Source: Echinarachnius parma (lineage: Eukaryota > Echinodermata > Echinoidea > Clypeasteroida > Echinarachniidae). Taken from it: a DNA stretch of 64,000 nt. The stretch spans positions 90,863 to 154,862 of the forward strand of contig JBAMJV010009710.1 of the NCBI GenBank assembly GCA_037951105.1, read 5' to 3'. Shown one piece after another: positions 2,359 to 57,800 of the stretch. Below the pieces are notes generated by a model. The model worked only from the letters and a program-made list of their open reading frames with translations. It did not search any database and was not told the DNA's origin. Numbering within the stretch: position 1 is the first letter of the stretch; each line of letters opens with the position of its first letter. Made by a program: the position numbers and the translations under genes.

Positions 2359-2477
2359 CTGTACTCCGGCCGGAGGCCAGATGAGCTTTTGTCGTGGCGC
2401 GGCGTCCGTTGTCCGGCTGTTGTCTGTCCGTCGTCCGTCCGTCCACAATTTGCGAAAATTGCTATTTCTCCTAGTAG
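2359..2477. repeat. GTCCGTC-rich repeat downstream of the gene
   Basis: Short degenerate GTCCGTCC/GTCGTCCG iterations (2402-2445) followed by an A/T-rich stretch. Similar motifs are common in repeats of marine invertebrates. Could include the 3' UTR of the SAMD3-like gene; no polyadenylation signal was seen. Confidence 0.4.
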
Positions 2478-3897
2478 TAGAGATGTTAAGACCCCAAGAT
2501 ATGGGTGTTCACTGCACTTTGGGGTACAGAGTTTTTAATAACTTTAAAATATTCCTTGGATGAAAAGAAGAAAATTCATCCAAAGAGACACTTTGTATCT
2601 ATGCAAATTAGGCCTAATTTCCATAATTTATGCAAATTTATTCATGAAAACGGGATATTTCATGAAAATTGTGTTTTTATTGACATATTTTATGGGGAAC
2701 ATATTCCTTGGATCAAAAGAAGAAAATTCAATTAAATAGACACCCTGTTTATATGCAAATTAGGTCTAATTTCCATAATTTATGCAAATATATGGATGGG
2801 AATAAGATATCTAAGCCAATGGTATTTTTGTTGACATATTTAGGAGAACATAATCCTTGGATCAAAAGAAAGAAAATGTTTCAAAGAGACACTCTGCATT
2901 TATGCAAATTAGGCCTAATTTCCATAATATATGCAAATTTATTCATGGCCCCAGAAAATAACTTCCCCTCAATAAAGCCACAAAATGACTTTGTCCATCA
3001 GAAAGAGTGTCTTTTCATAAGAAAATTGATACCAAGAACATTAATTTTGGTAGTGTAGTTTTTGTTTTACAGCGCTGTGAGTGACACCATGTCAGGGTTC
3101 ATTTTTCTTCGATTTGTGACATACCTATTAGCTAAAGAATGACCCGAACAGCTCGTCATAGAATTACGGTGAACAATAATGCGAACACCTTTGTTAATGT
3201 GCAATCGACTGAATAGCCACAGCACAGAATTCTATAACGAGCCGCTTTGGGTCATTCTTTAGCCAATAGGTCAGTTAAAATTGAAAAAAATGAACCCTGA
3301 CATGGTGTCACTCACAGCGCTGTAAAACAAAAACTACACTACCAAAATTAATGTTCTTGGTATCAATTTTCTTATGAAAAGGCACTCTTTCCGATGGACC
3401 AAGTCATTGTGTGGCTTTATTTTTGGGAAGTTATTTTCTGGGGCCATGAATACATTTGCATAAATTATGGAAATTAGGCCTAATTTGCATAAATGCAAAG
3501 TGTGTCTTTGGATCATTTTTTTTTCTCTTGATCCAAGGATTATGTTCTCCTAAATATGTCAACAAAAATACCATTGGCTTAGATATCCCATTCCCATCCA
3601 TATATTTGCATAAATTATGGAAATTAGACCTAATTTGCATATAAACAGGGTGTCTATTTAATTGAATTTTCTTCTTTTGATCTAAGGAATATGTTCCCCA
3701 TAAAATATGTCAATAAAAACACAATTTTCATGAAATATCCCATTTTCATGAATAAATTTACATAAATTATGGAAATTAGGCCGAATTTGCATAGATACAG
3801 AGTGTCTCTTTGGATAATTTTTTTTCGTTTTATCCAAGGAATATGATAAAGGTACTAAATCAATTGTACCCCAGATTGCAGTGGCGGACATCTTAAC
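2478..3897. repeat. 1.4 kb inverted repeat (foldback/MITE-like) with internal ~150-bp units
   Basis: The two arms, about 2478-3140 and 3240-3897, are reverse complements over nearly their whole length with few mismatches; the loop is about 100 bp. Each arm holds three related units starting near 2550, 2703 and 2849, each beginning ATTCCTTGGATCAAAAGAA and containing ATGCAAATTAGG and TTTATGCAAAT. Open frames of 60-116 codons within it are by-products of the repeat and occur on both strands. Confidence 0.85.
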
Positions 3898-4239
3898 CAC
3901 CCTACTATAGAGTCTTTAGGGGGTTTCATTCAAACTTGCACACAATGTTCACCATGTTGCTGTGTATATAAGGTCAAGTGACAATTGCAGCAAATGCTAT
4001 TTCTCCCGAAATATGTTCAGGATTTAACTCGAACTTATACACAATTCTTCTATTGACCCTGCCATTACAGGGTGTCTTCCAGGTGGCGCCACCTATCATG
4101 GTTGTGGCGATACATGTAAGGTCAATTCATAATCTGTGAGATTATACAACTGTTTTAAGATTTCACACTTTGCGCCAAACGCTATTTTTCCCAAACTAGC
4201 TACACTGTTATTGACACTTTTCTTTTTTTTTCTTCTTTT

Positions 4240-5010
4240 TTTTTCATTTAGTATGTGTACTGTGTTGATTGAGTTTGTGAGCATTGTATTTGTGAGCATT
4301 GTATTTTCCATGACATGATACAGTGAGATATTCCGTCCGATGGTCATGGCAATTTGTACATGCACTTGTATATAGACTTTAAACAATTTGGATGTTGTTG
4401 AAGGGTACTTTCAATTCACGTTTAGTACACATTTCAACTCGGGTTTATTACCCATTTATTATGTGTACTCTGTTGATATGATACAGTGAGATCTTCCGTC
4501 CGATGGTCATGGCATTTTGTACATGCATTTGTATATAGACTTTAAGTAATTTGGATGTTGTTGAAGGGTACTTTCAATTCACGTTTAGTACACATTTCAA
4601 CTCATGTTTATTACCCATTTATTATGTGTACTCTGTTGATATGATACAGTGAGATCTTCCGTCCGATGGTCATGGCATTTTGTACATGCATTTGTATATA
4701 GACTTTAAGCAATTTGGATGTTGTTGAAGGGTTCTTTCAATTCACGTTTAGTACACATTTCAACTCAGGTTTATTACCCATTTATTATGTGTACTCTGTT
4801 GATATGATACAGTGAGATCTTCCGTCCGATGGTCATGGCATTTTGTACATGCATTTGTATATAGACTTTAAGCAATTTGGATGTTGTTGAAGGGTACTTT
4901 CAATTCACGTTTAGTACACATTTCAACTCAGGTTTATTACCCATTTATTATGTGTACTCTGTTGATTGGACAGTTTGTTGTGAGCATTGTATTTTGCATG
5001 TACACATGCA
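4240..5010 (+). repeat. Tandem repeat, 163-bp unit, about 4.5 copies
   Basis: The phrase ATACAGTGAGAT recurs at 4318, 4481, 4644 and 4807, exactly 163 bp apart. Copies 2-4 are nearly identical; the first is a little diverged, and a partial copy ends at about 5010. Two T/A-rich stretches (4207-4240 and 5047-5068) flank the array. No coding content. Confidence 0.9.
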
Positions 5011-36554: not shown

Positions 36555-37100
36555 TAGTTTCTCCATTGGCATTCTTTTTTTTCTTCTTTTATTAAACCTG
36601 CAAACACTCAATTTAGTTGTGAATAACTGATGTTCTCGAGGGATTGGTTCGGGTTATTTGGGTTCTTTCTTTTATTTGAATTTTCAGATCTCCTTGGAGA
36701 TCCGGAAAAATTGCTACAGCCGACGGTATTTCACGTCGTCAGAGCGGGGTATTGGGATAAGTTTTCAACTAGCAATAATCGCGCCTCGGATAAACCTCAT
36801 TGGCTACGATATTGCCTCTGCGCAAAAAAAACATTATTAGACAAATTGCCTTCATATAATGATTTTGAAGACCGCATCTTTCGTGGTTAGTGAAAAATCG
36901 GAATAACTGCGATCCCTCATGAATGCAGTGATCCGTATCAATAAATGACAATACATCACTTTGCATCGCTAATTTACATGACAATGCCCACTGAACAGTA
37001 CTTAAAGGTATATTGTGCACAATCTCCCCTTTACTTCAGTACTAATGATTAAACACTACAAAACATTCATGGACCTACACATACGGAAACACACTCACAC
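36555..37100. repeat. Dispersed repeat R, copy 1 (empty-site copy)
   Basis: About 95% similar to the second copy at 46020-47760 apart from two insertions there. Shared blocks: TTTTGTAG(T)TTCTCCATTGGCATTC (weak), GGAAAAATTGCTACAGCCGA, TTCACGTCGTCAGAGCGGGG, GAAGACCGCATCTTTCGTGG and ATATTGTGCAC. Both copies end in CA-rich DNA that abuts the poly-A end of an L1-like LINE. Short frames within it are not conserved as protein. Confidence 0.85.
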
Positions 37101-37102
37101 AC

Positions 37103-40100
37103 TTTTTTTTTTTTTTTTTTAAATGATTTTTATTTCTCCAAATTAACATGACATTTACAATTGAATAACATTTTAAATAATACCAGTTTACAGTGTACAA
37201 ATCAAGTGTAATGCAAAAATTAAACACAATGGAGATTTAACAAAATATAAAAAGAAGTAACACATGCTACTTCTCCCTTCCCCACCGCCCCCACCCACCG
37301 CCCCCTCCCCCACCCCTTTACACACTCACCCTCTCCTCCCTGCCCCGGAAATCTGCTCACATTAAAAAAAAAAATTTTACCAAATACATACTTAAATCAA
37401 TTCTTTTTAAATGTTACAAGCTCACGGGAGAAACATCGCGTTTGAAGAGTTCATGTCAATATTATTCTAATTTTACTGTTTCCCATTTTTGTAAATGTAA
37501 TCCTAATTTCCCCATTTTAGTTGCTATTCCCTTTTCCTGGTCCTTATAATCTAATAACAGTTTCTGAATTGTATCGATATTTGGTAGAACACCGTCTTTT
37601 CTTAATACAAATAAAATATATTTTACCATAAAAATAGGGGTATTACAGCATTTTATTCTATTTGAATTACCTAATAAACCAACAAATATATCCCGCCACT
37701 TTAAATCCTTTATTTCATCTAACTTAAAACGTTGTATCAAGGCTTTCCATATCACTTTTACATTTAAACAAAATAAAAATATATGCGAATATGTTTCCCT
37801 TTCCCTTTTACAGTACGAACACAAATTATCTTCAACAAATCCAAATCTAAATAAATGATCTTTAGTGTATATTGCCCCATGCAGTAACTTAAATTGAAAC
37901 TCTCTCTGTTTCCCAATAATTAATGTTATTCTTGGTTTTAAAAAACATTCATACATTTCTTTATCCATAAAATTAAAATCATTTTGTCCATCTCTTATCT
38001 GTAAAACATATGACTTTTGTAATTCTCTAATAAAATAATCATATATTTTTCTAGATGGTACATCCTTAAAACTTACATTTTTATCCAAAAGATATAAATT
38101 AATATCATAATTTATTAAGTCTACCTCACAAAATCGTATCAAACCTAAATCATTTTTCCAATCCCTCGGAATCGCATGATATATATCAATTATTGTAAGT
38201 AAATTCTCACTTCTCATACCAAAATTCAAAAAATATGCAACGGGTTTAACATGTCCATTATCCATTATATGGTTCAACATAACTATCCCTCGTTCTAATA
38301 ATTCTTTATCAAATACCATCTTATTTGTTGTTATACATATGTTCCTATTATTAAATATAATTGGATTCATACGACCATTAAAATGCCTTAAATTATCAAT
38401 CTCTTTCCAAGCTTTCAACATTTCCAAATAATAAGGTGGAATCTTCAACATAAACTTCATCTTTGACATTTCATAATCACATACAAAAATGAACCTTCCT
38501 CCTACTGAACTTAAAGAGTAATAAAAAAATAACTTCCATCCCAAATTTCTTTCTCCATATAATAGTCGTTTAACCCACATTATCCGCTGCGTTCTAACAA
38601 ATATTTCAAAATTAATCATTTTTACTCCACCATAATTATAATTTTGATACATAATTTTTCTTTTTATACGATCTTTCCCTCCCCATATAAAATCAAACGA
38701 TATTTTCTCCACTTCTATATAAACCCATACGGGAACAACAAGGAGAGATGAAACATAATTCAACTTTGTTAACGCATACGTTTTTAATAAATGTATTTTA
38801 CCCATAATAGTCAAATCCCGTTGTTTCCACCAGCCTAGAAGCTTTTTAATTTTACTTAATATTTCTTTATAGTTTAAATCGTCTTTTAATCTAAAATCAA
38901 CCGAAAAATTAACCCCTAAAATTTTTACTTCCTTAACAAATTGTCCAAACAAAGGCCCATCTGGTTTCCCAGTTTCCTCACCCATATACATAAAATGTGT
39001 CTTTTCTTTATTAACTTTCAAACCACTTACTTTTTCAAATTCTTCAAATATATATTGCAACCTTCTTATAGAGTTTATATCTTTCAAAAAAATTGTCATA
39101 TCATCTGCATACAATACTTGTCTTATTTCATGCTCCCCAAAAAGTATCCCTTTAATTATTTTGTCCCTCCTTACTTCATGTGCCAACAATTCTATTGCAA
39201 TTAAAAACAAATAGGGCGACAATGGATCACCTTGTCTAACACCCCTTTCTATATTGAAATAACCAGTGGAATACCCCCCATTCATAATACAACTACTTAT
39301 ATCATTATATAATATTTTCACCCAAGAACAAAACGAATCACCAAAACCAAACAATTTTAGCACTTTCAATAAATATTGATGGGATACAGAATCAAAAGCT
39401 TTTTCAAAATCTACCGCAATCAAAAACCCTTGTCCTTTCTCCAATGAATGTTTAGAATAAAATAATATATCTTCTATTAATCGAACCGCTTCCCCAATAT
39501 TCCTATCTTTTATATATCCCACCTGATCATAATGAATTATTTCATTTAAAACATTTTTAATCCTAGTTGCTAAAACCTTCGATAATATTTTATAGTCTAC
39601 ATTTAACAACGTAATGGGTCTATAATTTTTAATATGCATCGCATCTTTTCCCTCTTTCTCTATCAATGTTATAGTCCCTTGTTTTTGAGATACAGTCAAT
39701 TCCCCCCTTACAAATGTTTCATTCAATACTTCTACCAACAAATCCCCTAATATGGGCCAAAATGTATCATAAAATTCTACTGTAAAACCATCATTTCCAG
39801 GGGATTTATTCCATTTCATTTCTTTCAAAACTTTAAAACACTCATCTTTCGTCAATTTACCTTCACATAATTCTTTATTCTGTTCACTTAACTTTAAAAT
39901 ATCATCAAAAAATAAACCATTATTTTGACCACTATCATTCCTCAAAGAATATAATTGTTCATAAAATATCTTTATCTCTTTTAAAATATCATTTTTATCT
40001 CTAGTAATTTCTCCATTTTCCTTATATACTTCTCTAATGACACTTTTCCTTTTATTTACTTTCAACAATTGTTCAAAATACCGAGTATTATTCTCCCCTT

Positions 40101-40808
40101 CTTCAAACCAAGCTGCTCTAGAACGAACTTTAATGCCCTGTCGAGAAAAATCATACAATTTATTCAACTTATCTTTTTTCAATTTAATACTATCAATAAC
40201 AAACCTAGATGCCCTTTCGACTAACTGATTTTCTAAATCCTTAATTTCAGTCTCTAACGTCTCTATTTCAAATTTTCTTAACTTCGCCTTTTCACGCGAA
40301 TATTTCATAGCGTATTCCCTCATTTTCATTTTCAAAAAATCCCAAAATACTAATTTATTCGAAATCCTAGGTCCCCATTCATTTTTCAATTCAAATAATA
40401 TATCATGCATCCCCTCAACAAAATATTTATCCATACATAAACTATTATTAAATTTCCAATACGACTTTCCAAAAACAAACTTATCCACTAAATGCTGAAA
40501 TTGCAATTTGATGCCCGAATGATCCGGTGTTATGGATACCAAAATTTCACATTTATTCACTAATTTTTCTAAACTACATGATATAAACCAATAATCTAAA
40601 CGACTTTGGACTAAGGGCGACGTTTGTCTAAAAGTGAACTGTCTAGCATTAGGGTTCCTTTTCCTCCATATATCTTCTAAATCATATTTATTCAAAAATC
40701 TTTTTAATACCTCAATAAATCTAGATTTTAATACAATATTTGGCCCTTCATAATCCATACCCCCTTCCATTACAGTGTTAAAATCTCCCCCTAATATTAC
40801 TGAATAAT
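37103..40808 (-). mobile_element. L1/Tx1-like LINE A (5'-truncated, long intact ORF)
   Basis: On the - strand the element enters within the endonuclease domain at about 40808, runs through RT, and ends in a ~340-bp 3' UTR and an A18 tail (T run 37103-37120). The 5' break abuts a CA repeat (40826-40886), the 3' tail abuts CACTCACACAC. No target duplication is obvious because both flanks are CA-rich. Confidence 0.9.
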
Positions 40809-40820
40809 CCTTATAAAAAA
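37462..40820 (-). CDS. L1/Tx1-like ORF2: endonuclease remnant, reverse transcriptase, zinc-knuckle C-terminus
   Basis: The formal open frame runs from 40998, but its first ~62 residues (CACVCVRVFFF...) are translated CA repeat and flanking LINE 3' UTR. LINE homology starts at YSVILGGDFNTVM (endonuclease GDFN at residues 71-74 of the open frame) and goes on to RLDYWF and SITPDHSG (the SDH-type motif, ~155-162). RT motifs follow: SPGNDG (~399), NYRPITLLNVDYKI (~458), catalytic Asp in AVDFEKAFD (~530), GVRQGDPLSPYLF (~586) and YADD (630-633; DNA 39100-39111). A C-x2-C-x8-H-x4-C zinc motif (CSYCKRERETYSHIFLFC) is at ~1060. RT/YADD, 'YRPI(T/S)LLN' and the C-terminal zinc motif place it in the L1/Tx1 group. 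More than 1,100 codons with no stop or frameshift imply recent insertion; loss of the N-terminal endonuclease makes it non-autonomous. Confidence 0.9.
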
Positions 40821-40825
40821 AAAAC

Positions 40826-40886
40826 ACACGCACGCACACACACGCACACGCACACACACACGCACGCACAAACGAACACACGCGCA
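40826..40886. repeat. CA-rich microsatellite between two LINE fragments
   Basis: (CACG/CACA)n lying between the truncated 5' end of LINE A and the A-tail of LINE fragment C. Both LINEs are on the - strand. Confidence 0.9.
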
Positions 40887-41005
40887 CATACTTTTTTTGG
40901 TGATTTGTATTCCTCCAAAGTATAAGCATACAACATTTACAATTGAATAAAACATGTCCAATGTTATCATCATATTCATAAATAAGGAATACAAACAATT
41001 ACAGT

Positions 41006-42979: not shown

Positions 42980-45905
42980 CTGTAGTAGAGCAGATAAGTG
43001 TAATAATCGTTCAAAGTTTGATACAAGCAAGAGCCTTGGTATGTAGGCTACCATAGGGACACTTTTCAGGAAAAAAAACACTTAGCCACGCGAAAATCCA
43101 AGATGGCGGCCATTTTCCAAATTGGCCGCCAAAAAGCTACTTTTTGATATAAAAATTGACTGGGTTGGCCGATTTTAGTAATCTTGGTGTCGTTTTATAT
43201 GTTTATTGACATGCTGAACACAATTGTGATATATACGGACTTATACGATGGCCAAAATCCAAGATGGCCGCCATTTTCCCAGCTGGCCCAAAAAAGCTTC
43301 TTTTGATATAACAATTGACTGAGTTGGCCGATTTTAGTAATCTTGGTGTCGTTTTATATGTTTATTGACATGCTGAACACAATGGTGATACATACAGATT
43401 CATATGATGGCCAAAATCCAAGATGGCCGCCATTTTCCAAGATGGCCCAAAAGAGCTACTTTTTTATTTAAAAATTGACTGAGTTGGCCGATTTTAATAA
43501 TCTTGGTGTCGTTGTATATGTTTATTGACATGCTGAACACACTGGTGATACATACGGACCCATACGATGGCCAAAATCCAAGATGGCTGCCACTTTCGAA
43601 GATGGCCGCCAAAAAAGCTACTTTTTGATATAAAAATTGACTGGGTTGGCCGATTTTAGTAATCTTGGTGTCGTTTTATATGTTTATTGACATGCTGAAC
43701 ACAATTATGATACATACGAACTTATGCGATGGCCAAAATCCAAGATGGCCGCCATTTTCCCAGATGGCCCAAAAAAGCTTCTTTTGATATAAATATTGAC
43801 TGAGTTGGCCGATTTTAGTAATCTTGGTGTCGTTTTATATGTTTATTGACATGCTGAACACAATGGTGATACATACAGATTCATATGATGGCCAAAATCC
43901 AAGATGGCCGCCATTTTCCAAGATGGCCCAAAAGAGCTACTTTTTGATTTAAAAATTGACTGAGTTGGCCGATTTTAATAATCTTGGTGTCGTTTTATAT
44001 GTTTATTGACAAGCTGAACACACTGGTGATACATACGGACCAATACGATGGCCAACATCCAAGATGGCTGCCACTTTCCGAGATGACCGCCAAGGCAAAT
44101 TTTGTTCATAAAAGTTGACCGAGTTTGCCGATTTTTATTATGATCTTGATGTCGATTCACATGTGACCTGATATGCTGAAGACGATTATGATACATACAT
44201 ACATATATAATGGCGAAAATCCAACATGACGACCATTTTTCAAGACGGTTGCCCAAAAGCATGTTACATTTGTTTCCCAAAACTGACTGAGTTTGTTGAT
44301 TTTAATAATCTTTGTACTGATTAAAAGGTTGTTTGATGAGCTGAAAACTATTTTCGTACAAATGGATCTAAATAATGGTACAAATCGAACATGGCGGCCA
44401 TTTTCCAAGATGGCGTAGCAAGGGGATAAAGGAGGGATTAGCCATCCCTCCCTAAGCATGCTTAGGAAATCTCATGTTTTGGTTAAGGCTGCTACCTTAT
44501 AGGAAATATTGCCCTAAAAGTTTGTTTGCCACCCCTCTCATCATTGGTAGTCCTTTGGTTATGCCTCTGAACTTTTGAGATGATTGAGTGACAATAAATG
44601 TACGATTTAAATCATTATGAACGCGATATCTTTGCTATCCCGTGCATCGCCCTATCCCCCTATCCACCTTCCCTGCCCCCATTAGGCTCATAGCCTGAGA
44701 CTGGCAACGACATGGTCCTTTTTACGATATATACCAAAAGAATATCTTGTAAGAGTTTGGTCACCGTCTGTTATTTGCTTCTCTGTAATGATTCAGTTTG
44801 GGACGTAAGTATAATTGGTTATACAATGACTCGGACACTATAGTCACCCATCTATCACCTATATGGATACAAGTACGTCAGTCTTTAAAACATGGAATAA
44901 CCCACTCCCGTCAGGCTCATCATTTCCTTGAGTATGGTGACCATTCAGGGTGTAAAGATACACTGCTAATTTGACCAACCACCATGAGCAAGTAGTGCAA
45001 ACTCAGTCCCACTTCAATAAGAGAATGGATAAGCAATTTAACGTATCCCAGGAAATGGATGAACCCCTAAAAGAAAGAAATTTGCAAGACACTAAGGATA
45101 TATAATACACCTCATATGGTGTTGCTAAACAATTATATTTACACTGATGTGTACAGATCATGCTTCTGGAATGGTTCAAAGGCGTGGCTAAGGGGATGGA
45201 TATGCAGACAGCATGCTATTTATATCTATCATACGTCCTAGACAATAGCTATATATAATACATCTTATGGAAATCTTTTTTTCTAAACTTTTAGGATATA
45301 AAGACTGTTGCCCTTTAATTGTACACTAAAAAAACAGAAGTGCTGTTTTCAGCACATTTTCGGTGCTCGCATAGGGACAGCACAGCCTGTGCTGGTTCGG
45401 CACTAGTACAAGTGCTAGTACAAGGGGCCATCTGAACAAATGGCGGCCATCTTAGATTTTGGTCATCATATGAATCTGTATGTATCACCATTGTGTTCAG
45501 CATGTCAATAAGCATATACAACGACACCAAAATTATTAAAATCGGCCAACTTAGTCAATTTTTATATCAAAAAGTAGCTTTTTTGGGCCATCTGGGAAAA
45601 TGGCGGCCATCTTGGATTTTGGCCATCACATGGGTCCGTATGTATTACCATCGTGTTCAGCATGTCAGTTAACATATAAAACGACACCAAGATTACTAAA
45701 ATCGGCCAACCCAGTCAATTTTTATATCAAAAAGTAGCTTTTTGGCGGCCATCTTGGAACATGGCCGCCATCTTGGATTTTCGCTTGGCTAAGTGTTTTT
45801 TTCTAAAAAGTGTCCCTAAGGTAGTCTGCATACCAAGTATGTTGCTTGTATTAAACTTTGAACGATTTCCATGATATGTTACACTTATCTGCTCTACTAC
45901 TGTAC
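42980..45905. mobile_element. Foldback-like element with tandem-repeat arms rich in AAGATGGC
   Basis: Terminal arms: GTAGTAGAGCAGATAAGTGT, CGTTCAAAGTTTGATACAAG, ACACTTAGCCACGCGAAAAT (43000-43096), with the inverse at 45770-45905. The left arm goes on with eight ~160-bp units (next feature); the right arm has two inverted units and a partial (45425-45780). The ~1 kb middle (44420-45420) is unrelated and non-coding, with a MITE-like hairpin GTGCTGTTTTCAGCAC at about 45340. Inverted arms made of internal tandem repeats recall Drosophila FB elements; the family here is unknown. Confidence 0.75.
43093..44420 (+). repeat. ~160-bp tandem units, eight copies, each with paired AAGATGGC/GCCATTTT motifs
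   Basis: AAAATCCAAGATGG recurs at 43093, 43254, 43413, 43573, 43735, 43894, 44054 (AACATCC), 44216 (diverged) and partly at 44382. Each unit: CAAGATGGC(C/G)GCCATTTTCC, AAAAGCTACTTTTTGATATA, TTGACTG(A/G)GTTGGCCGATTT, AATCTTGGTGTCGTTTTATA and GACATGCTGAACACA. Alternate units are more alike (43254 and 43735; 43413 and 43894; 43573 and 44054), a ~481-bp higher-order period. AAGATGGC matches the core of the YY1 binding site. Confidence 0.9.
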
Positions 45906-45938: not shown

Positions 45939-46007
45939 TCCTTGGTAGTATGGCGAGTATCTCCGCCTGTCACGCGGAAGACCGGGGTTCGATTTCCCGT
46001 CAAGGAG
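45939..46007 (+). tRNA. tRNA-Asp(GUC)-like gene, short D arm
   Basis: Acceptor TCCTTGG pairs with TCAAGGA plus discriminator G; anticodon stem TCCGC/GCGGA with loop CTGTCAC (anticodon GTC); T arm CGGGG/TCCCG with loop TTCGATT. At 69 nt it is about three bases short, all in the D arm (TAGTATGGCGAGTAT against the usual TAGTATAGTGGTGAGTAT). It could be a slightly degenerate gene or the head of a tRNA-derived SINE, since the ~60 bp after it are shared with the pseudogene at 42359. No TTTT terminator follows closely. Confidence 0.6.
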
Positions 46008-46478: not shown

Positions 46479-46704
46479 TTAACAAATTGATTCAATAATA
46501 AACACTCAATGTGGTTGTGAATAACTAATGTTTTCAAGCGATTGGTTTCGGTTGTTTGGGTTCTTTCTTTTATTTGAATTTTGAGATCTCCTTGGGGATC
46601 CGGAAAAATTGCTACAGCCGACGGTATTTCACGTCGTCAGAGCGGGGTATTGGGATAAGTTTTCAACTAGCAATAATCGCGCCTCGGACAAACCTCATTG
46701 GCTA

Positions 46705-47497
46705 TAGCCTATCCGATAGGCATCGTGCTGTCTGGCAGGTTCTACAACGAAACTGTATACTAACCGCGAAAGGCCGAGTTTGAGCGCGCAGCGCGAATGC
46801 CTATCGTCACTCGTGAACGTGAAAAGTTTTATTTTCTTTTATTTATACTGATTCGTTCGTAGAAACTCTACGAAGCCCATATTCATATGACACGGACCAG
46901 GTAGATCAGCTGCTGTTTGTGAGTGTTAGTCTTCGTTTTAAAGCTGCATAGTAAAACCAAGCGCAACATTGCACAATACACTGTTAGTGGCATAGAGTAG
47001 TGGTTGTTATAGGGTCTCCGCGACAGACTAGCGTGGGCTGTATGCACTGAACGGATGCCTGTGCGGACGCGTCCATTATTGATAGGGTACGTCATTACAA
47101 AATATGTTGTTTTCTTTTAAAATAAAGAGTTGAGATTTGATATGGATGCAAAAAGGTATTTCTATGCTTTAGTTTTTATTGTAATGTATCTCAAATGTTA
47201 TCATTATGATAGTTATGATAATTTTAATGTCTGATACTAACTAAACCCCTTAATACACGATGGAACACGCCACCGATTAGGCAGACGGTATCCACATCTA
47301 GCGATCTGATTGGTTGATGATTTCTCTCATGAATTAGTCATGCCTTATTCTCGTTGCTCATTAATAAATTACTGCGAATCGATTGACTAAAGGCTATATA
47401 TTGGAGCCAGTTTAATAGTATCTAGCTCTCTTACAGCTAGCTAGCTCGCGATCGCATAGGGAATATCCAAGCCATATAGAGCCTTGACTAAAGGCTA
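46705..47497. mobile_element. 793-bp insertion with 9-bp target duplication (Mutator-like)
   Basis: CATTGGCTA occurs on both sides (46696-46704 and 47498-47506), while repeat R copy 1 has a single CATTGGCTA at the matching place (about 36798). The ends are TAGCCTATCCGATAGGC and, reverse-complemented, TAGCCTTTAGTCAAGGC: short imperfect terminal repeats. Nine-base duplications are characteristic of Mutator-type transposases. No transposase fragment was seen; short frames inside are not recognisable. Confidence 0.8.
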
Positions 47498-47897: not shown

Positions 47898-50800
47898 TTT
47901 TTTTTTTTTTTTTTTTAAAGTAATTTTTATTCCTCCAAATAAACATTTACATTTGAATATACATACCAAAGCAAATATACATATACAACTATAATGAACG
48001 AAAGTAGAAATGATTATCTTACATACATAAACAAATACAAATCAACTGTATATTCAATTTCCTGACTTCATGGAATTAACATAATGGAGGTTTTGTAGCT
48101 AAAAGTAAAAGGAACTAAAATATGCCCCTTTACCCCCCCCCCCCCCCCACCCCACCCCCAATTTAGCCCAAGAAAAACCCCATCCCCATCCAACCACCGA
48201 TCGCACCACAATCACACACATACCGCAGACACCCATTCCAGTATTCTGCTCGTTTTTATTTCAACCAAAAAGGTAATTAATTAACAATATAGAAAGCTGT
48301 CACATTCAACTAAAGAGGGTAGAAACCCAGAACCTTAATAATCATAAACGAATTCCCTATAATTCTAACAAAATTAAATTAATCATATTATACATGTATT
48401 TTATGGTGTTCCCACTTTTGTAAGTGAACTCCTAGTTTACCCTTTTTAATAGCCATTTTTTTTCTTCTTCTTCATAATCCAAAATAATTTTCTGTACTTT
48501 CCGTACAGAAGGAAGTACACCTTTTGTTCTAAAAGAATAAATAGTATATTTTAACAAAAAAATAATAGAGTTACAATACTTAACTCTATGCGATCTACCT
48601 GTCAGTCCTACAAAAATTATTTTCCAATCAACATTCCTAATTTCAATCAAATCAAAATATTCAATTATATCTAACCAAACCCTTTGTACGTATAAGCATT
48701 TTAAAAATAAGTGTGAAAAAGTCTCAATCTCATTTTTACAAAAAGAGCATAAATTATCAATAACAAATCCAAAACTAAATAAATGTTCTTTTGTATATAA
48801 TGCCCTATGTAATAATTTGTATTGAAATTCTCTCAACTTACCCACCAAAACTGCGCTCTTTAATCTTAAAAATATATCCTTCAATTCTTCATTACTATAA
48901 TCAAAATTTGTATGTCCATCCCCAATACACAAATTATATTCCTTTTGAAATGTTTTAACTAAATATTCATACATATGCCTAGATTTTAAATCAATTAATA
49001 TTCCTATATATCCCGAAACTTTTAATCTAATTTCAAATGTTCGAATATCTACTTGAATAAAGTCACTCGTAGTTTTATCATCTTTCCATTGAAGAGGCAA
49101 TGCCCCAAAAATATCATGAATCTTTAATAATCCTTCTCCTTTTATTCCCAAGCCTACAAAGTGAGCAACAGATCTCAAATTACCATTCAACATTATATCA
49201 GATACCTTGCTTATACCTCGTTGTAATAAATCTTTATCAAAAATCATTTTATTTCTTAAGCACACATGTCTATTATTAAAAACAAGGGGATTACTTTTTT
49301 TCATTTTCAAAGTGTCTAAAATTATCTATATCTTGCCAAACTTTCAACATGTCTACATAAAAGGGCGGAACTTCTTTTAAATCCATCTTATGAATATCAT
49401 AATCACATAAAAACACAAACCTTCCTCCTACTGATCTACAACAATAATCAAAATATACTTTCCATCCTGAATGCTTATCCCCATACAAAAGACGTTTAAG
49501 CCACATTATTCGTTGAGTTTTAACAACAATTTCAAAATTATTCATTCTAAGCCCTCCAAATTCATAATTCTGATACAAAATTTTTCGCTTAATTCGATCC
49601 TTACCATTCCACAAAAAATCAAATGAGAGTTTATCAACTTCCTCATAAACCCACCGAGGTACCGAAATTAAAGAAGAAACGAAATTTAATTTTGAGAGTG
49701 CGTACGTTTTTAATAACTGAATTTTTCCCATCATCGTTAAATCCCTTTGCTTCCACCACCCTAATAAACGTTTTATCTTACTTAATACTTCTTTATAATT
49801 CAAAACATCTTTCCGTATCTTATTACGTGTATAATACACTCCTAAAATCTTTATTTCATGAACTAAATTTCCAAAGGTGGGTTCTCCTGGTATTTCAGTA
49901 TCACATCCCATCCAAAAAAAATAGTTTTTTCCTTATTTACCCTAAGTCCACTAATTTTCTCAAAATCTTCAAAAATCTTTTGTAATCTTTTTATAGATTT
50001 TAAATCTTTAACAAATATTGTAATATCATCGGCATACATTACTTGTTTAACTTCATGATCCCCAAATTTAATTCCTTGAAAATTAACATCTTTCCTAATA
50101 ACCAGAGCCAAAGTTTCAATGGCTACCAAAAATAAATAAGGCGAGAGAGGATCCCCTTGCCTCACCCCTCTCAAAATATCAAAATAACCCGTTGAATGCC
50201 CGCCATTCATTACACAACTACTTATACCTTTATATAACATGTGGACCCAGTTACAAAATGATTCCCCAAATCCAAATAATTTTAAAACATTAAATAAATA
50301 CCTATGTGAAATAGAATCAAATGCCTTCTCAAAATCAACGGCGCCTAAAAATCCAACAGATCTATTCAATGAATAAAATACCATATCATCTATTAAACGT
50401 ACTGCCTCTCCTATATTTCTATTTTTAATATATCCAACTTGATCATGATGGATTATTTCACCAAGTACTTCTTTCATTCTCTTTGCCAAAACTTTCGAGA
50501 CAATCTTGTAGTCCACATTTAAAAGTGTGATTGGTCTATAATTTTTTACAAACAAAACATCTTTACCTTCTTTCTCAATCAATGTTATGACCCCTTGTTT
50601 TTGAGAAATTGACAATTCCCCTCTATCAAAAGCTTCATTTAATGCGTCTACCAACATGTCTCCCAAGATCGGCCAAAAAGTGCAATAAAATTCTACAGTA
50701 AAGCCATCATTACCCGGTGATTTATTTAATTTCATTTCCTTCAAAACATTATGACATTCTTCTTTCACCATTTTACCTTCACATAATTCCTGACTATCTC

Positions 50801-52420
50801 TACTTAATTTAGGTATATCCTTTAAAAATACAGTTTCACTTCCATCTAATAATTCCATATCCTTTGATGCATACAAATTTTTATAAAATATTTTAATCAC
50901 CTCTAATATGCCCTTTTTATCTTGTATAATATTATCCTCTTCATTATAAATCTCTCTAATTACACTTTTTCTCTTATTAGTTTTTAAAAGCTGTTCAAAA
51001 TACTGCATATTTCTTTCTCCCTCTTCAAACCATGCTGCCCGGGTTCACTAATAATTTTTAAAGGTGTATTTACTAATTGTTCTTCTAAATCTTCCACTTC
51101 TTTTTCTACTTTTTCAATCTTTTCTCGTCTTTCCTTAGCTTTTCCAGAAGAGTATCTAATTGTATATTCCCTCATCTTCATTTTAATAAAATCCCAAAAT
51201 ATAACTTTATTCTCAATTTGCAAACGCCATTCCTTATCCAAATTCAAAATTTCACCTGTCAATCCCTCAACAAATTCCTTGTCCAAACACAAACTATTAT
51301 TAAATTTCCAATATGATTTACCATAGCACAATGTATCTACCAAATGCCTAATCTTAATCCTAATGCCAGAGTGGTCTGGTGTAATTGATATCAAGATATC
51401 ACTTACACTTACTAATTTTTCCAATTTGGATGATATGAACCAATAGTCCAATCTACTTTGAACTACTGGCCATTTCTGTTTAAAAGTAAATTGTCTTTCT
51501 TGAGGATTTCGTTTTCTCCATATATCTATCAAATCATATTTAGAGAGAAAATTCACCAATAAATCACGAACCTTTACTTTAAAAACAGTATTAGATCCCA
51601 AATAATCCAATTCAAAATTCATTATAGTATTAAAATCTCCTCCTAACAAAATAATATAATCTCGAACTTCTAATTCAAACATCACCTTATCTAACTTCAC
51701 CAAAAATTCAACTTGCATCTTTTCTTTATCTTTTGTAGGAAAATAAACATTACCTAACAATACTTTTACTCCTTGAACTTCTCCTTTTAAAAATATGTAT
51801 CTTCCCTCTCCATCTATTATCGTTTGTTCTATCTTAAAGCCAAAACTCTGAGTAACCAAAACTAAAACTCCTTTACTGTGATTTGTCCCATGGCTAAAAA
51901 TCATTGGCCCTCTCCAATCTAACTTCCAATTTTCTTCAACGTCACGAGTACTATACGTTTCTTGCAAAAAAATAATATTACTTCCTTTACTTTTACACCA
52001 TTCTAATACATTCCTCCTCTTAACTTTATCTCTAAGACCTCTTACATTTAATGATACAATAGTCAAATTGGAGTTTATTTTATCTAACTCAACCATAGGC
52101 GTTAACAAAGAAAATGACAGCCCTATATATTCTTCCTATAACACCGCAACCTAGCACAAAAATATACAAATATGAGCAGAAAACGGAACCCACAACATCA
52201 CACCACACATACACACACATCCTACAGAGCCCCACTGACCCAACCCGAAGAGCTGAGATCCCAACCATGTCCATCATCGAGAACTAAATAAAAGAAGAAA
52301 ATATAAGGTAACGTACGAGTATCAAACCAAAGAGGTGTATAACCTCCCTGATTGAACTGGCCTCTCCAGCCTAAACGGCAAAAAATAAAAATAAATACAA
52401 CAAAAAATTTAAATAGCAAT
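47898..52420 (-). mobile_element. L1/Tx1-like LINE B (near full length, broken ORF)
   Basis: - strand element with A19 tail (T run 47898-47916), 3' UTR to ~48430, ORF2 remnants 48432-52108 and a 5' leader extending to at least 52280, probably to ~52420 where repetitive AATGCTATTAAATTTAAATA begins. Protein sequence is roughly two-thirds identical to LINE A by eye, so it is a separate subfamily. The relic at 13070-15411 is closest to this one. Confidence 0.85.
48432..52108 (-). pseudogene. L1/Tx1-like ORF2, complete endonuclease and RT, three frame breaks
   Basis: Starts at MLTPMVELDKINSNL (52108) followed by TIVSLNVRGLRDKVKR, FLQETYS, LLGGDFN, RLDYWF and ITPDHSG: a full APE-type endonuclease of about 230 residues. 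RT motifs NYRPITLLNVDYKI, DFEKAFDS, RGVRQGDPLSPYLF and YADD are intact in 49863-51050. The C-terminal zinc motif CSFCKNEIETFSHLFLKC is in 48432-49310. Breaks: a ~75-bp deletion with frameshift at about 51040 (the linker kept by the relic at 13.9-14.2 kb is lost), slippage at an 8-A run (49914-49921) and at a 7-T run (49295-49301), both + strand coordinates. Not functional. Confidence 0.9.
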
Positions 52421-54811: not shown

Positions 54812-57800
54812 TTTATTATTAATGTCTGCGCTACTAATCCTCCAGTGGAATGCGCAGGGCATGAACGGACACGGAGGGGAATTAATTAGATATATAGACA
54901 CTCACAAGGATACAACTTTCCATTTACTATGTATTCAGGAAAGTTGGTATGATGATACGAATATTATTCAAATTCCTAATTATACATGTATATGTAAAAA
55001 TAGAAAAACGCAACGTAGAGGAGGTTGTGTCTTCTATATACATGATACACTTAATTATGAATATGTGGAGATTGATACAAATATTGAAATGCAGTTGATT
55101 AATATATATTATGATGGCTCATTTGTGTCAGTTGTGAATTATTATAATCCTTGTAAAGAAATTACTATGGACATTTTAGCAACTTTGGTAAAGTATGCTA
55201 AAGATCCACAAAAATTAATTATTGTGGGTGATTTTAATTCACATAATGTTTTGTGGGGTAGTAAAATAAATGATAGAAATGGAATTTTGATTGAAGAATT
55301 TTTGATGAAAAATGATATGATTGTTTTAAATGATGGTTCAGGAACTAGACTAGATCCTTTTACTGGGAAAACATCCTGTCTGGACTTATCGTTAGTGTCA
55401 GCACCTCTAGCAAATAAATGTCAATGGCAAGTGCAGCCAAATCAATTTGGAAGTGACCACTTCCCAGTTTATATTGAATTTTATATTCAAGGCCATTGTA
55501 ATAAAACAAAATATGAAAATGAAGGTGAACAGACGAAATGGTCTTTTAAAAAAATGGACTGGACTGCTTTCAGTCGAATGTGTGAAGAGAAGATTACAAT
55601 TGAAGCTCTATATGATGAGGATGTAAATATCTTTCATGCAAACTTGATAGAAACGTTGTATGATATATTTAGAATATTATTACCTAGTAAAAATAATAAG
55701 TAAAGGGGCAACCCAGTCCCATGGTGGACAGAGACGTGTTCCGCCAAAATAAAGGAAAGAAATAAATTAAAAAATAAATTGTTGAAAATGTGGACTCAAG
55801 AAAATTTACAAACTTTCAAAGAAAAGAAAGGTGAGGCACAAAGGACAATTCGACAAGCAAAAAGAACTTATTGGCAAGCATATTGTGCAAAATTGAATAG
55901 ATTTACATCCATGTCTCAATTATGGCAGTTTATTCGCCTTTTGAGTGGAATTCCAAAGAAATCTATGCACAATTTTCCTACTTTAAAGGTAGGACAAGCG
56001 ATTGTGTTAGACGATAAAGAAAAAGCAAATGAGTTAGGAAATTATTTTGTAAAGGTTGGAAAAAAGGATAAGAGTAAAGATAATTCTAAAGTAGATGGGG
56101 AATTCAAAGAAATAGTAAATTATTTAAATGAGGAGATGGATCAAAATATCGAGTTGACAATAAATGAACCATTTAAGATATTTGAATTAGAAAATATTTT
56201 ACAATTGAAAAATGCCTCGGCCCCTGGCAACGACGGTATCACGTATGAGATATACCAACACTTACCAGCAAAGGCCAAGCATGTGATATTAGATTTATAC
56301 AATCTAATATGGAAGACTGGAAATATTCCTACCCAATGTAAGCACGCTATTTTAATTCCAGTTTTAAAATATGAAAAGAATCCACAAGAAGTATCCTCTT
56401 ACCGTCCAATAGCACTATTACCGTGCTTTATTAAAATATTAGAAGGCTTGGTAAAGGAAAGGTTGAATTATTATATTGAGAAACACTCTCTATATTCCCC
56501 CATTCAGAGTGGTTTTCGAAAACGCCGAAGTACAATTGATAATATTGTTCATTTAGAAAATGAAATACAAAAACATTTACGAGTTGGAGTGAAAACTATG
56601 GCAGTTTTCATAGACTTGCAAAAGGCGTATGATACGATATGGATAAAAGGACTCATTGTTAAATTAAACAAGTTGGGTCTCAAAGGAAATGTATTGAAGT
56701 TTTTAGTAAATTATTTGCTACAAAGATCTTTCCAAGTTCAACTTGGGAAAGAAAAATCTGAAGTAAAATACTTAGTGAATGGTCTTCCCCAGGGAAGCAT
56801 CCTAAGTCCTCTATTGTTTAATTTAATGCTTAGTGATATTCCACAATCACCTGAAATACACCATTTAATATATGCAGACGATTGCGTTATTTGGAAATCG
56901 GGGAATGATATAAGAACAAATATGAAAATAATGCAAGATTATATAAATGAATTATATGATTGGTTATTTTCTTGGGGATTGCATATATCTCAAGAAAAAA
57001 CAGTACCTATACTGTTTTCAAATTGTGGGAAAGATGAAGGCCTAAAATTATATTTGAAAGGGAAACTATTAATCCCTCAAAAGGAATATAAATATTTAGG
57101 TGTCATATTTGATAAAAGATTAACATGGAGACCACACCTGTAGGATGTGGTCAAACGATGTAAAAAAAAGATAAATGTGATCAAAAGTTTGGCCCATGCA
57201 AAATGGTGTGGAGACTCTCGGGAATTATTGATGGTATACAAATCTTTAATACTATCAGTTATTGACTATGCGTGCGAAGCATACGACTCCGCTGCAACAA
57301 GTGTAAAAAATAAAGTTAACTCTGTGCAATACCAATCTTTATTGGTATGTGCAGGAGCTCAAAAGGGAACTTCCCTCAGAACACTGCAGGTTGAATTAGG
57401 GGAAATGCCCCTTGACCTGCGACGAGAAATGATGAGTTTGAAATTTAAAAAACGTATTGAAAGTGTTTTGGAACATCCTCTTAAGAAAGATATAAAAGAT
57501 TGTTGGCAATTCCATTTTTATGGAACATCACATGCATCATTTGGAGAAAGAACGTTTAAACTGGAAAAACAATTTAAATATGAAATGGAAGTAATAAGTC
57601 CCTCGGAGATGCCTTTCTGGCAAATGGCTTTACCCTCTGTATCAACGGAGTTGACAGAGACAATAAGTAAAAATGATAATCGATTACATCAAAAACAAGC
57701 AGCTTTAGAAATAATAAACACAAAATGGAGTAATCACTTGTCTATTTTTACTGATGGATCCAAATCCCCAGAATCAGGAAGAGCAGCTGCTGCCTTTTAT

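Follow-up and report, generated by a model that had tools for sequence, protein, structure and literature searches.

Positions 42983-45899 of the window, the 64,000-nucleotide stretch of Echinarachnius parma DNA analysed here, are a complete copy of a non-autonomous, foldback-like DNA transposon. Its parts are the following:

42980..42982: left 3-bp target-site duplication, CTG, identical to 45900-45902
42983..43089, plus strand: left outer domain of the terminal inverted repeat (TIR), 107 bp, beginning TAGTAGAGCAGATAAGTGTAA
43090..44377, plus strand: left arm, eight full units of about 160 bp with a 481-bp higher-order repeat; units start at 43090, 43251, 43410, 43570, 43732, 43891, 44051 and 44213
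44381..44422, plus strand: left tail, a 42-bp partial unit, barely more than the double motif block ATGGCGGCCATTTTCCAAGATGGC
44423..45409: non-coding spacer, 987 bp
45410..45462, minus strand: right-arm partial unit, 53 bp
45464..45784, minus strand: right arm, two full units (45464-45623 and 45624-45784), inverted relative to the left arm
45785..45899, minus strand: right outer domain of the TIR, 115 bp
45900..45902: right target-site duplication, CTG

The architecture proposed in a preliminary description of the window was confirmed. The inverted ends share 20 identical bases (42984-43003 and 45879-45898), and the tandem units of about 160 bp are present as eight full copies and a 42-bp piece on the left and as two full copies and a 53-bp piece, inverted, on the right. 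The higher-order repeat of about 481 bp was supported both by the period that TRF finds in the left arm and by pairwise identities between units, with L2 and L5 98% alike, L3 and L6 97%, and L1 and L4 93%. Only the exact ends, first placed at 42980 and 45905, were off by a few bases: base 42983 is where most genome copies start, and what the window alone had suggested to be a 5-bp duplication (ACTGT) was reduced to 3 bp after comparison with those copies. Long TIRs of tandem, number-variable units flank a middle domain, and the element is foldback-like in this sense.

Several other features lie in the window. A tRNA-Asp-like sequence (45939-46007, 41 bits) is separated by 39 bases from the right end of the element, and two matches to U4 spliceosomal RNA are found on the minus strand at 36689-36829 and 46587-46722 (116 and 79 bits). 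Reverse-transcriptase frames (Pfam RVT_1) occur at 37462-40998 (minus strand, E 7e-41; 1178 codons, no stop), 49863-51044 (minus strand, 7e-37) and 55704-57143 (plus strand, 2e-38), and their neighbouring frames suggest that the three belong to non-LTR retrotransposons. At 4311-4966 there are four tandem units of 163 bp, 97% alike, for which no inverted partner was noted.

A mobile family in the source genome

We searched the source assembly (1.2 Gb, 14,790 contigs) with the outer domain plus first units as query. A first look returned 1117 candidates, of which 40 were scored, giving at least 40 places with the outer domain. The exact 21-base terminus TAGTAGAGCAGATAAGTGTAA matched 404 times genome-wide (204 forward, 200 reverse; positions were listed for 100 of the 404), and its reversed control did not match at all. 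Apart from the window copy there were 39 scored places; long stretches were examined for 20 of them, and five of these 20 showed no right end within the stretch.

Exact 3-bp target duplications flank 39 of 41 end-pairs, namely 15 of 16 complete copies (the exception being L026), both longer copies and 22 of 23 further end-pairs (the exception being L055/L056), and among these 22 the duplication is exactly 3 bp and never longer. The end-pair counts include records of the same site (L021 and L022 with the window copy, L024 with L036, L053/54 with L077/78, and L045/46 with L086/87). Unique target sites, 32 when L041 and L042 are left out, are mostly A+T-rich and share no fixed word. Most further ends (63/66; 45/46 and 18/20 in the two sets) continue into units, and the exceptions in the 20-end set are L093/L108, which has a nested insertion ahead of the units, and L101/L109, which has a deleted arm. 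The suggestion that this is a mobile element is thus backed by genome copies, precise termini and target duplications; a lack of other copies with inverted ends, the outcome that had been set against it, was not what the genome showed. No copies of the element were detected in viral contigs (two exact patterns) or phage records. The insertion of the window element is also present on two other contigs (L021 and L022), whose flanks are 99.5-100% alike mutually and 91.5-92.8% alike to the window, pointing to either a diverged haplotype or a duplication.

In the comparison across copies that had been proposed, unit numbers vary and differ by whole units. The 16 complete copies have 4-9 unit matches in the left arm and 3-5 in the right (partial units included), and the spacer of the other complete copies measures 1.0-4.4 kb, mostly 1.6-2.4 kb. 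L024 and L036 are records of one site, with flanks 97.8 and 99.75% alike. In the left arm they differ by a single gap of exactly 160 bp; over their 3628 aligned bases there are otherwise 14 mismatches, together with nine short gaps (1-15 bp), all within the spacer. This one-unit difference implies that a unit was gained or lost after insertion, unless a record is misassembled. Among 125 units spanning at least 140 model positions, 67 form an outer class that is uniform over its whole length, and the classes of inner units mostly track position in the arm. Arm-to-arm gene conversion after insertion was considered and is not supported, as the first left and first right units of 12 elements score 0.918 within an element and 0.915 when compared between elements.

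The longest frame in the window element has 108 codons and no gene was recognised in the spacers, so the element must be moved by a protein from elsewhere. Frames were listed for the longer copies L035, L041, L042, L108 and L109, among which no autonomous partner was found. A Pfam scan of seven frames picked by eye (from L035, L041, L108 and L109) produced one match, to a LINE endonuclease (in L108), and none to a transposase.

The target duplication of Drosophila Foldback is 9 bp long. Tetris, a foldback element of Drosophila virilis, is in the relevant sections of its description (PMC4079207) apparently non-autonomous and consists, like the present family, of an outer flanking domain, tandem units and a non-coding middle; it also has two allelic copies that are one unit apart, as L024 and L036 are here. 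However, its units measure 220 bp instead of about 160 bp and share a stretch with the outer domain, which those of the present family do not, its target duplications are 8-10 bp long, and those sections mention no YY1-like motif of the kind arrayed here. The exact 3-bp duplications therefore do not fit Tetris or Foldback.

A different affiliation would be with Helentron-type elements (pearl / Cg_HINE), which in bivalves carry satellite repeats of the BIV160 type. Those elements, as far as the portions of PMC5139131 and PMC7492417 dealing with them and with BIV160-Cg170 repeats go, are likewise non-autonomous and have tandem units of about 160-170 bp. Besides the unit length, a weak match of our unit to the BIV160 primer bivF (its score is attained by 8 and 3 of 1000 shuffles) speaks for this relationship, whereas the second BIV160 primer has no match (1000 and 373 of 1000 shuffles). 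Moreover, pearl and Cg_HINE are described in the same portions with short subterminal inverted repeats and no target duplication, and Helitrons make none according to part of PMC7492417; in contrast, the inverted repeats of the element studied here are truly terminal, and its target duplications are exact and 3 bp long. We consider a Helentron carrying BIV160-type satellite repeats very improbable and reject it as contradicted by the target duplications.

Abundance and conservation of the motif block

The element contains 15 occurrences of the octamer AAGATGGC and the rest of the window one, where chance predicts 1.64 for the whole window. We counted a 12-mer as YY1-like if its GCCAT was unchanged and it differed at no more than two positions from GCCGCCATTTTG or GTCGCCATCTTG, which are named YY1 sites in the part of PMC11602158 devoted to them. 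There are 20 such 12-mers in the element, compared with 0.165 per shuffle of the element and with one in the other 61 kb of the window, and 12-20 in each of the 16 complete copies. Shuffles ruled out a chance origin for both the motif excess and the inverted ends.

The near-palindrome had been thought to be present in every unit, which proved correct for most units and wrong for unit 8 (44213-44377), which has AACATGAC in place of AAGATGGC, and for its class, the innermost-left one, where the octamer is lacking in 15 of 15 units. Counting either strand, 43 of 44 outer left units have AAGATGGC, as do 16/17 of the second-innermost left units and only 1/17 of the innermost full left units (two truncated arms, L028 and L031, included). 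From outside to inside, the right units retain it in 19/21, 11/13 and 10/14 cases. It also survives in 16 of 18 tail fragments (12/14 without same-site duplicates), where the rest of the unit is gone.

Whether the motif is the best conserved part of the unit, as had been proposed, depends on the material compared: the proposal holds, with mixed statistics, for outermost units over many copies and fails for the window copy alone. There, AAGATGGC ranks 6 of 153 8-mers, slightly above the rest, and the blocks around AAAATCC, GAGTTGGCCGATTTT and GCTGAACAC are equally or better conserved. These data are compatible with the motif having no function at all, the units being expanded by unequal crossing-over and the motif conserved by chance or low mutability, since its conservation in the window copy is only slightly above that of other blocks. 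Between unit classes, likewise, 27 of 153 windows match the conservation of the motif.

To look at constraint over many copies, we contrasted variants found in two or more units (shared) with those found in one unit (private), leaving CpG sites out of the counts unless stated. One set comprised 78 complete outermost first units from 88 ends, both ends of an element being counted separately and L077, L078, L086, L087 and L079 (same site or too short) as well as L093, L101, L041 and L042 being excluded in addition to the same-site duplicates L021, L022, L036 and L040. The other was the set of 125 units, which excludes the same-site duplicates L021, L022, L036 and L040 and unit matches below 140 model positions; rate comparisons left out clusters 2, 6 and 7 (4 units) and thus used 121. 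All p-values from these tests are rough because units of related copies are not independent.

In the 78 units, the 18-bp palindrome CAAGATGGCGGCCATTTT had three shared-variant events on 32 class-sites, compared with 87 on 238 elsewhere (p 0.0022), whereas private variants per base were 0.0089 in the palindrome and 0.0118 in the rest (p 0.48), and private variants in AAGATGGC gave p 0.29. The block ATGGCGGCCATTTT has no shared variant whatsoever and ranks first of 148 14-base windows at non-CpG sites (14 of 148 when CpG sites are counted), and the quietest stretch by between-copy shared variants at non-CpG sites is ATGGCGGCCATTTTCCAAG. The full palindrome ranks 18 of 144 without and 22 of 144 with CpG sites, and AAGATGGC with all variants counted ranks 62 of 154, because a few shared variants sit in its first bases. 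When shared and private variants were set against each other directly, the palindrome alone (3:11, versus 87:109 elsewhere) was not significant (p 0.16); adding the second motif copy gave p 0.022, an addition chosen after the data had been seen.

In the larger set (121 units used), the shared-to-private ratio was no different (p 0.41) and the shortage of shared events in the palindrome was weak (p 0.07). Among the 8-mers of outer units in this set, AAGATGGC was retained best, though narrowly (0.93 versus 0.91), and it had slightly few private variants (5/939 versus 191/14,452; p 0.034, uncorrected). A shortage of shared variants in one block is thus present in one of the two data sets. Other copies in which the motif varies as freely as the rest of the unit, which had been named as counting against its special status, were not found. 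Constraint seems to act on elements that are still moving and not on settled copies, as far as these mixed statistics indicate.

The absence of function would draw support from the rank of 14 of 148 with CpG sites and from the two ratio tests on the palindrome (p 0.16 and p 0.41). Against it, ATGGCGGCCATTTT combines zero shared variants in the 78 units with ordinary private ones, which low mutability would not explain, and the motif block survives in the tail fragment. We therefore hold this explanation to be a possible one, of rather low probability.

Candidate functions of the motif block

YY1 dimerises and loops DNA. If this host factor binds the motif, the arrays might let it open, loop or silence the element, or pair its ends. 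Apart from the abundance of YY1-like 12-mers, such a role has precedents in the mouse L1 Tf 5'UTR, whose tandem monomers each carry a YY1 site of nearly the same 12-mer (PMC11602158, in the part concerned), and in silencer segments of mariner that are bound by YY1 (PMC4777549, likewise in part). However, the L1 Tf monomers described in that part of PMC11602158 are direct repeats in a retrotransposon promoter for which YY1 function was shown, whereas the present element offers a sequence match to YY1 sites. With no frame above 108 codons and no gene in the spacers, the element has nothing obvious to transcribe, and settled copies show no clear retention of the motif (the private-variant tests on the palindrome and AAGATGGC above). 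We consider binding by YY1 unlikely. More doubtful still is the further idea that YY1 was co-opted as an architectural helper, drawing the arm arrays together and pairing the ends, so that each transposition would seed a YY1 cluster.

Also relevant to this question is a second foldback-like element, known from one copy:

2475-3907: second inverted-arm element, termini TAGTAGAGATGTTAAG and TAGTAGGGTGGTTAAG, 3-bp duplication TAG, 152-bp units in both arms

Its terminus type, TAGTAGRGNNGWTAAG, is related to the termini of the first element, suggesting that the two may belong to one transposon group. Compared with those of the first element, its units show no similarity beyond chance (109 and 123 of 200 shuffles attain the scores). 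They carry a near-palindrome of another kind, octamer-like and of the form TATGCAAATTAGGCCTAATTTC, which is found three times in each arm, six times in all, and shows no more than one difference in the compared part. If both elements are of one group, a different palindrome in each family would fit family-specific protein sites better than YY1.

The explanation that we rank first, and to which we give about an even chance, is that the motif block is a putative secondary binding site of a transposase that we have not seen, with decay of settled copies and unit turnover included. The element would move by cut and paste, through a transposase presumably made elsewhere. The motif block of each unit (ATGGCGGCCATTTTCCAAGATGGC in the outermost ones; near-palindromic and YY1-like on both strands) would bind the transposase or a protein of the end-pairing complex, and stacked blocks would make for stronger end recognition. 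Unequal exchange would add and remove units; copies with intact outer sites would continue to move, keeping the motif constant in source lineages, while settled copies would decay at the usual pace, the motif having been lost from the innermost left class of units.

What places transposase sites first is the lack of coding content together with a Galileo-like layout, the motif being present in outer units and lost from the innermost left ones, although it is also kept in the tail fragment. Further support comes from the shortage of shared variants in the outermost units, the survival of the block in the tail, and the second element, whose unrelated units again hold one near-palindrome each. 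In Galileo, a member of the P superfamily, footprints and gel shifts located THAP-domain sites close to the terminus and within TIR repeats one and two of four, with none found in the third and fourth (PMC3688188, in its binding-site data). As presented in parts of PMC3688188 and PMC3573991, Galileo and the present family both have long, internally repetitive TIRs, but Galileo includes transposase-coding copies, none of which were found here, and its end-proximal site recurs in its repeats, which is not so in our family. A further difference is the 3-bp target duplication of the present family.

Several observations weigh against transposase sites. The scanned frames of longer copies contained no transposase; unlike in Tetris and Galileo, no site is common to the outer domain and the unit beyond what chance gives (scores attained by 155 and 255 of 500 shuffles); and one inner unit class is without AAGATGGC in all 15 units. 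The two non-significant ratio tests on the palindrome, its weak shortage of shared events in the larger set, and the lower ranks of the palindrome and, with CpG sites, of ATGGCGGCCATTTT also count against this reading. On balance, transposase sites appear to fit at least as well as a YY1 cluster, and our order is transposase sites, then no function, then YY1.

Foldback-like arms, variation in unit number and binding sites in TIR repeats are already known. Among the listed open-access literature matches, no title described a foldback element with YY1-type arrays, and of the matches to the motif and unit strings, that in PMC5139131 corresponds, in the matching part, to the BIV160 primer, the others being unrelated by title. 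This family bears on the question of why the inverted arms of some transposons are long and internally repeated; for Foldback elements, the pertinent section of PMC3688188 calls the role of such tandem repeats untested. With hundreds of ends available in a single genome, shared and private variants can be tested as in a population, and here the test points to one short stretch within the unit. If YY1 binds this stretch, the spread of the family would, in addition, have dispersed clusters of a regulatory motif in large numbers.
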